DNA from: Armatimonadota bacterium
Lineage (GTDB): Bacteria > Armatimonadota > Fimbriimonadia > Fimbriimonadales > Fimbriimonadaceae
Direction of reading: 5' to 3'
Length of the DNA: 64,000 nucleotides
NCBI GenBank assembly: GCA_017303935.1
Contig: JAFLBD010000002.1
Location: 186,001 to 250,000, forward strand
Shown: positions 62,115 through 64,000 of the stretch, one piece after another
Layout of the letters: every line of letters starts with the position of its first letter
How positions within the stretch are numbered: position 1 is the stretch's first letter
Position numbers and translations under genes: made by a program
Notes under the pieces: generated by a model
Told to the model about the DNA's origin: nothing
What the model saw: only the letters and a program-made list of their open reading frames with translations
The model's database searches: none

Positions 62115-62186
62115 TCCACACGGATAATGACACGCCGCACACCACAAGAGGGAACACGACCCTCCCCGTCGAACTTAGTAATTGGT

Positions 62187-63077
62187 ATGAAAGCTGTTTT
62201 AGGCGTGGATTTAGCGGGGAACTACCAGTTCGCATTAGACCTCCTAAAGAGGCTTCAAATCCCTGGGTTAGAAGTCGTCGCATTCCATGCGGTGCCTTCC
62301 GTTTTGCCCGACGGCGGATTTCCAAGCGTTGGCCCCGCGCATCCGGTTGGCAACATGATCGCCGAACTTCAACAGAACGGTCAGCAGAAACTCGTTGAAG
62401 TCAAAGAAGACCTTGATTCAGCAGGAATTCCTTGTGAGGCAGTGCTCGAGTTCGGGGATGCTTGCGCCCAAATTCATGCCTATTGCGATGCACATCCAGT
62501 GGAATTAGTGGCGGTTGGAAGCGAGCGCAAATCGGCCTGGGAATCATTCCTTTTTGGAAGCGTCGCCAAGGGTCTGACGATCTCGATGGAAACCAGCCTT
62601 TTGGTAGCCGAGCAACCGAAATCCCAGCATGAAGGGCTGAGATTACTCGTTGCCACCGACCATTCTGCGTACGGGGACGAATGCCTCAAGATGATCGCTG
62701 GACTCCAGGCAAAAGGAATTGCAAAAATCGATGTCGTTCACGTGATCAATCCGCTTGAAGCTGCGGTTTCTATGGATTTCGGCGGTTATGTTCCAGAGAT
62801 CGCATCGGCTGCATTGCAGATGCGTGAACGATCTGTTGCGATGAACGAGGAACTCGCGGAATCACTTTCGGCTCTCGGAGCCGAAGTTGCCACCCACATC
62901 TGGCAGGCAGAAAATGGGGTCAAAAACGCCATCGTGGAATGCGCAAAGTCTCTCGAATCCGACTTGGTGGTGGTAGGAGCCCAGGGTCACGGCTTTGTTG
63001 AGCGCAAATTGATGGGCTCAACATCGTATGACCTTGTCGTTGACACGGATCTGTCCGTGCTGATCCTCCGAAAATAG
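62187..63077 (+). CDS. Tandem universal stress protein (UspA fold)
   Basis: 296 aa from ATG 62187. Two UspA domains (about 1-145 and 150-296). The second ends with the ATP-binding motif G-A-Q-G-H-G near residue 265, with the closing G-S-T-S near 278. The first domain has V-G-S-E-R-K near residue 110, where the glycine motif is degraded, so it probably does not bind ATP. Involved in stress survival, exact role unknown. Followed 18 nt later by the DsbA-RibD fusion. Confidence 0.9.
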   Translation: MKAVLGVDLAGNYQFALDLLKRLQIPGLEVVAFHAVPSVLPDGGFPSVGPAHPVGNMIAELQQNGQQKLVEVKEDLDSAGIPCEAVLEFGDACAQIHAYCDAHPVELVAVGSERKSAWESFLFGSVAKGLTISMETSLLVAEQPKSQHEGLRLLVATDHSAYGDECLKMIAGLQAKGIAKIDVVHVINPLEAAVSMDFGGYVPEIASAALQMRERSVAMNEELAESLSALGAEVATHIWQAENGVKNAIVECAKSLESDLVVVGAQGHGFVERKLMGSTSYDLVVDTDLSVLILRK

Positions 63078-63095: not shown

Positions 63096-64000
63096 ATGTC
63101 AACGATGATCAAAGTGGCACACGACTTTAGCTGCGGATGGTGCTGGATTGGGATCAACCAAGTTCGAAAGCTCGAGCAAGAGTTCGACGTGGAATTCGAT
63201 TTTGTGGGGTACGAGCTCTTTCCAGAATCGATGGAATGGCCCGAATCTCATCCGAAATCGGTAAATCCAAACCGCCCGGAGACACCCAGTCGCTTTGATT
63301 TGGCAATGGCTGCAGCAGAACTGCCACCGGTTGCGCCGAACCGCCCATCGCAAATGCGTACTTTCTTAACACATCAAGCCGTAGAGTTCGCGCGGCAATC
63401 CAACGGATCGCATCGCAAGCTCATTGAACGGCTCTATGACGCGACTTGGCAGCACGCTATCGACATCAATTCGGTACAAGCTCTTCGCCTATTTGCGACC
63501 GGGCTTGGGCTCGATCTTGAAGAAATGGAGCGAGCCATTGTCGAGCGCCGATATCGCGATCAAGTCATCGAATATGACGATCCTGCCTATGCGTCTGGCG
63601 TGTACAACTTGCCTACGTTCTTCATCGGTGAGGCAAAGTTTGCCGAGCAACCGATTGGCGTATTGCGTGAAGCGCTTCAGAAAGTCGCTCGAAGAAGGGA
63701 GAATTTCGAACTCGCGGAACCTCTCACATCCACCCAGCAAGACCGTCCTGCGGTCATCAATTGCATGATCTCCACCCTGGACGGCAAGATCGTTTTGGGC
63801 GAACGGACTGATCCGGTGGCAAATCTCGGAAGTGGCTTTGATCACCGGCGAATGCGGTTCCTAGAATCGAAATGTGATGCGGTGATGATCGGGGCCGGGA
63901 CGCTGCGAGCTACACCAGGGGTTTGGTTTGATGCCAGCCTTTACCGCATTGTCGTCACTGAATCGGGGGACATCAACACCAGCCAAAGATTCTTTACGGA
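63096..64000 (+). CDS. DsbA-family oxidoreductase fused to RibD-type reductase domain (3' end outside window)
   Basis: The frame is open to the last base (301 codons). Residues 1-205 are a DsbA/FrnE-type thioredoxin-fold domain with the redox pair C-G-W-C at 13-16 after H-D-F-S, and the cis-Pro region N-L-P-T-F-F-I-G near residue 176. From about residue 225 a RibD C-terminal (dihydrofolate-reductase-like) domain begins: A-V-I-N-C-M-I-S-T-L-D-G-K-I, then D-A-V-M-I-G-A-G-T-L-R-A near residue 267. These domains are normally separate proteins. FrnE-like domains lack a signal peptide, as here, so it is cytoplasmic. The reductase substrate may not be the riboflavin precursor. Confidence 0.85.
   Translation, partial: MSTMIKVAHDFSCGWCWIGINQVRKLEQEFDVEFDFVGYELFPESMEWPESHPKSVNPNRPETPSRFDLAMAAAELPPVAPNRPSQMRTFLTHQAVEFARQSNGSHRKLIERLYDATWQHAIDINSVQALRLFATGLGLDLEEMERAIVERRYRDQVIEYDDPAYASGVYNLPTFFIGEAKFAEQPIGVLREALQKVARRRENFELAEPLTSTQQDRPAVINCMISTLDGKIVLGERTDPVANLGSGFDHRRMRFLESKCDAVMIGAGTLRATPGVWFDASLYRIVVTESGDINTSQRFFT

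Follow-up and report, generated by a model that had tools for sequence, protein, structure and literature searches.

A FrnE-type dithiol domain fused to a RibD_C reductase in Armatimonadota: a candidate pterin or diaminopyrimidine reductase

FrnE proteins are predicted cytosolic oxidoreductases of the DsbA family; the D. radiodurans protein regenerates itself via a second, C-terminal CxxxxC pair that is lacking in some homologues, and mutants of its gene show sensitivity towards diamide as well as cadmium (PMC8945050). The RibD_C reductase domain occurs in the bifunctional deaminase-reductase RibD (RibG), in the archaeal and fungal 2,5-diamino-6-ribosylamino-4(3H)-pyrimidinone 5'-phosphate reductase Rib7/RED and, as a stand-alone protein, in Rv2671 of M. 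tuberculosis, whose genome has the riboflavin pathway too. Mutational work on Rib7 reportedly assigned the recognition of the pyrimidine amino group to Asn9 and Asp33, versus Lys151 in RibG, and PDB titles confirm that Asp33 was among the residues mutated. Rv2671 is a functional analogue of dihydrofolate reductase (DHFR), and in simulation its residues Asn32, Asp55 and Glu181 contact the amino groups of antifolates (PMC10530724). Many bacteria of the ThyX type have no recognisable DHFR yet need to reduce some folate, and in 2007 the responsible genes were listed as unidentified (PMC1971073).

The window (i.e. the whole stretch of 64,000 nucleotides that was analysed) equals G000:C2:186001-250000 of a genome of 2.56 Mb that is 99% complete. 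On its forward strand a frame opens at the ATG at 63096 and runs without a stop up to the window edge (63096..64000, codons 1-301 of 419); in the host genome it extends 355 bases further to a normal stop that ends at G000:C2:250355, which confirms the C-terminus and gives a protein of 419 aa. The first-pass annotation had read this frame as a DsbA-type C-G-W-C domain joined to a RibD reductase domain, and Pfam bears this out, with both matches in the same frame and well above their cut-offs: DSBA (PF01323) spans residues 6-194 (63111..63677, + strand; 58.6 bits, cut-off 25.6) and RibD_C (PF01872) residues 218-404 (77.5 bits, cut-off 24.1). The reductase is complete (residues 218-416), its first part, up to residue 301, filling 63747..64000 (+). 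The motifs C13-G-W-C16, L228-D-G-K-I and M264-I-G-A-G-T-L-R-A all lie at the places that the first-pass annotation had given. The domains are joined by a weakly conserved linker of about residues 202-216 (63699..63743, +), in which the pLDDT is below 50 for residues 202-208. In a structure model of the fusion (mean pLDDT 80, pTM 0.51) each domain is confident and the linker disordered, and the arrangement of the domains relative to each other is not confident.

The N-terminal domain shares with the FrnE/DsbA family (PF01323) the thioredoxin fold and an invariant CxWC, and its closest match in both sequence and fold is FrnE of D. radiodurans (DR_0659; 5cnw, 5cp1 and 5co3, the first two being the nearest solved structures), to which it is about 22% identical. 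Both cysteines of the redox motif C13-G-W-C16 (63132..63143, +) are invariant (66/66 domains), as are Pro173 and Thr174 (63612..63617, +), which would form the cis-Pro loop expected of thioredoxin folds. Like cytosolic FrnE, the domain is without an evident signal peptide (PMC8945050). It differs from the D. radiodurans protein in being fused to a reductase and in lacking the C-terminal CxxxxC pair: no such regeneration pair was found in the alignment of the N-domains, where conserved cysteines are confined to the two CxxC columns. It would therefore depend, in all probability, on a reductant or oxidant from outside. It is, in short, an intact DsbA/FrnE-type dithiol domain for which thiol-disulfide exchange is predicted.

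The C-terminal domain matches RibD, Rib7 and Rv2671 in fold; among the solved relatives the archaeal Rib7/RED proteins score best (111-119 bits; archaeal and fungal Rib7 structures 5xux, 2azn and 6p8c), followed by RibD and Rv2671 (4xrb, 4xt4; 56 bits for the latter). The top NCBIfam match is likewise the Rib7/RED equivalog TIGR01508, at 82.3 bits for the whole protein and 85.2 bits for the domain, which is far below its cut-off of 186.45. In an alignment with M. mazei Rib7, position 9 is Asn in 83 of 91 relatives and Cys in the window copy (Cys223, 63762..63764, +), position 33 is Asp in each of the 90 sequences that are not gapped at it, the window copy included (Asp249, 63840..63842, +), and position 156 is Glu in 66 of 91 relatives and in the window copy (Glu349), and Leu in 18. 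The Asp229-Gly230-Lys231 motif of the reductase lies at 63780..63788 (+). The aligned residues in Rv2671 are Asn44, Asp67 and Glu193, exactly those obtained by adding 12 to the published numbering (PMC10530724), an offset that we infer. The family would carry the Asn-Asp-Glu residues with which Rib7 of archaea and Rv2671 of M. tuberculosis make contact to a 2-amino or 2,4-diamino pyrimidine ring.

The domain nevertheless differs from each of these enzymes. Compared with Rib7, with which its family has in common Asp33 and usually the Asn9 and Glu156 positions, it deviates at the positions of Ser29, Asp57 and Ser88, and its family lives in bacteria that already have RibD. It shares a 'VTRSG' stretch with Rv2671, which has no FrnE fusion. 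With RibD it shares the RibD_C domain, but the fused protein has no deaminase match and the position of RibG Lys151 is Asn in the family (Cys in the window), which places the protein outside bifunctional RibD; in RibDs from the phylum, Rib7 position 9 is occupied by Lys and position 33 by Ala or Ser. The FolA profile (PF00186) matches neither the fused protein nor anything in its genome. The C-terminal domain is an intact reductase of the RibD_C fold and a paralogue of RibD.

A match to the fused protein was found in 107 of the 113 genomes of the same order, and the reductase is present in about 105. A search for the same architecture, as the first-pass annotation had proposed, shows the fused frame to recur in 27 of 89 classified loci, in two families of the order and at about 40-50% identity; the remainder are 38 adjacent gene pairs and 24 reductases alone, the latter making up 9/9 loci of families f3 and f4, 5/8 of f2 and 10/72 of f1. 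The split pairs consist of separate genes on the same strand and in the same domain order, and 19 of the 38 overlap by 4 bases, which is the usual sign of translational coupling. In the tree of the reductase domain the well-supported branches alone require that the fused state changed four times or more, in a direction that the tree does not give, and therefore fusion or fission recurred. Outside the order the two domains, where both could be located in one genome, lie on different contigs or far apart (e.g. G157, G161-G163); the plasmid collection holds no fusion, only distant single-domain homologues, and a search of genome contigs returned one locus, a split pair. We conclude that the window encodes a genuine two-domain enzyme, made by the fusion of two neighbouring genes of one operon. 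Since the genes are fused, adjacent or coupled, the weaker link, namely that FrnE and the reductase belong to the same operon and presumably to the same process, is strongly supported.

Several individual loci deserve mention. At L009 (2094/2095) and L030 (2154/2155) FrnE and the reductase directly abut in one reading frame, parted by one in-frame stop, the pattern expected of a recent split. At L055 (6271-6940, in G085), beside an intact FrnE gene, the reductase falls into two frames of 110 and 64 residues, through either gene decay or an error in sequencing. The in-frame TGA that was flagged in several DsbA matches was considered as a selenocysteine codon and rejected: it is an ordinary stop, because the two frames merely overlap by 4 bases where the gene ends were mapped.

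With regard to the wider genome context, genes for an FtsX-like permease (42/65) and an ABC ATPase (39/65 loci with a called reductase) commonly come after the pair in family f1, and beyond them SpeD and SpeE. None of the recurrent neighbours was recognised as a gene of folate or riboflavin synthesis. The gene upstream in the window, which lies outside the system, encodes a tandem universal-stress (Usp) protein (62127..63077, +) and ends 18 bases before the fused gene; it does not recur as a neighbour among the relatives.

A separate RibD is found in nearly every genome of the order, including the window genome (G000:C2:408042-408989, L126), and the reductase Lys is kept in the RibD of 43 of 44 sampled genomes. 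Because RibD is present and keeps this residue, the fused reductase is an additional enzyme, and a replacement of RibD in riboflavin synthesis was rejected on the same count of the Lys151 position. This count takes the place of an alignment of six RibDs, of which L097 and L129 had been read in wrong frames and were left out. The RibD of the window genome itself has His at the conserved Lys and the fused reductase has Cys at the family Asn, so that both reductases of this genome deviate at the same aligned position.

A search of 291 genomes from the phylum found no FolA-type DHFR; there were five weak PF00186 matches, which were rejected as true DHFRs as the three that were inspected look like small YyaP-type RibD_C proteins, and for the two that were scanned Pfam ranked RibD_C first. 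ThyX occurs in 107 of the 113 genomes of the order and ThyA as two partial matches, such that thymidylate synthesis in the order is, as far as gene content tells, by ThyX. In the window's genus, unlike in the rest of the order, neither canonical ThyX nor ThyA was found, and the ThyX-like proteins that it does have are divergent and sit in long frames (about 330-490 aa; G000:C2:625283-625942, G000:C3:136212-136871). FolK is present in 83 and FolP in 85 of the 113 genomes, which means that folate is synthesised and needs to be reduced. Within the order, all three near-complete genomes that have no reductase have no FolP either (p 0.010, or 0.046 when two sister genomes count as one), and the reductase is kept in 17 near-complete genomes without FolP; the association is weak and a tight coupling of the reductase to de novo folate synthesis was discarded. 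Two sister genomes of 1.5 Mb (G067 and G068) lack the reductase, FolK and FolP, have a weak RibD match and keep ThyX, and may be vitamin auxotrophs. A fusion of dihydropteroate synthase with a flavin reductase, as in H. pylori, is unlikely, the FolP frames of the order being mostly 266-333 aa and that of the window genome 288 aa. Much of the phylum has FolK and neither FolA nor a reductase of the fused type, and there something else must reduce folate.

The reading that we favour, at a probability of about 0.5, is that of an NADPH-dependent pterin or diaminopyrimidine reductase on a tether to a dithiol oxidoreductase that works in the same process. The reductase domain would take a hydride from NADPH, as expected from its family, and pass it to a small molecule that contains a pterin or 2-amino-4-oxopyrimidine ring. 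Since FolA is not seen in the phylum, the likeliest such molecule would be a dihydropterin or dihydrofolate. The FrnE domain would act separately as a cytosolic thiol-disulfide oxidoreductase that serves the same process, perhaps so that enzymes or reduced pterins stay functional under oxidising conditions, and the linker would hold it close with no wiring to the reductase active site. In favour of this reading are the ring-contact positions shared with Rib7 and the DHFR analogue Rv2671, the separate RibD, the lack of FolA beside common FolK, FolP and ThyX, and the joint absence of the reductase and FolP from three near-complete genomes. The Cys of the window copy in place of the family Asn, the Leu in 18 of 91 relatives at the position of Glu349, the large part of the phylum with FolK and neither reductase, and the 17 near-complete genomes that keep the reductase without FolP count against it.

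The suggestion of a thiol-dependent partner for a pteridine or pyrimidine reductase, made in the first-pass annotation, fared differently in its two halves. The type of reductase gains from the Asn-Asp-Glu residues of Rib7 and Rv2671 (PMC10530724); thiol dependence as a requirement finds no support, with 24 of 89 reductases encoded without FrnE and no cysteine column of the reductase alignment above 24% occupancy. An exchange of electrons within the fusion, with the CGWC pair on one side and the reductase or its substrate on the other, is in our view very improbable, even though fusion and translational coupling give a 1:1 ratio and the FrnE domain, being without a CxxxxC pair, needs some partner: the family uses NADPH directly, the reductase has no conserved cysteine, and the 24 solo loci together with a model of pTM 0.51 without a confident domain arrangement make a direct electron path between the domains unlikely. 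An assembly or sequencing error that joined two adjacent genes, which the many relatives with separate adjacent genes might suggest, has a negligible chance, for unbroken fused frames occur in 27 separately sampled loci, three of them from same-genus relatives; the stop or frameshift between residues 205 and 225 that could have undone the fusion is countered by the uninterrupted junction in these loci.

Two other rivals concern the substrate. The protein could be part of an oxidative-stress or xenobiotic response in which the substrate of the reductase is some oxidised or foreign small molecule, FrnE repairs disulfides and pterin metabolism plays no role. The diamide and cadmium sensitivity of D. 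radiodurans FrnE mutants (PMC8945050), the Usp gene immediately upstream, the functional diversity of RibD_C proteins and the patchy presence in the phylum speak for it; the invariant Asp249 and the ring-contact residues indicate a defined ring substrate, the Usp neighbour is not conserved, and with about 105 of 113 genomes of the order the reductase is more widely kept than an accessory stress gene usually would be, so that we hold this to be unlikely, if credible. A second riboflavin-pathway reductase of the Rib7 type, in which reduction precedes deamination, as a back-up or substitute for the reductase half of RibD, appears rather improbable. Among solved families Rib7 scores highest, TIGR01508 is the top match in NCBIfam, the equivalents of Asn9, Asp33 and Glu156 are common in the family, and the window RibD carries His for the conserved Lys; against this stand the 82-85 bits relative to the cut-off of 186, the Lys retained in RibD of 43/44 sampled genomes, the loss of the Glu156 equivalent in at least 18 relatives and the lack of riboflavin genes among the recurrent neighbours.

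Both domains were already known, and what is new is their fusion, of which no published description was found in the literature searched, a search that was not exhaustive. The pterin or diaminopyrimidine reductase that we favour is possibly the missing folate reductase. The bolder proposal, that it serves as the dihydrofolate or dihydropterin reductase for a large part of this FolA-less phylum and that the repeated fusion to FrnE links folate reduction to the thiol redox state within a single polypeptide, is doubtful and put forward tentatively. To the question of the ThyX-type bacteria the analysis adds a phylum sample, i.e. 291 genomes in which FolA was not found, and a specific candidate for folate reduction, present in 105 of the 113 genomes of one order and sharing its ring-contact residues with a known DHFR analogue. 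The recurrent fusion or operon pairing provides, by guilt-by-association, a lead on what cytosolic FrnE proteins may serve.
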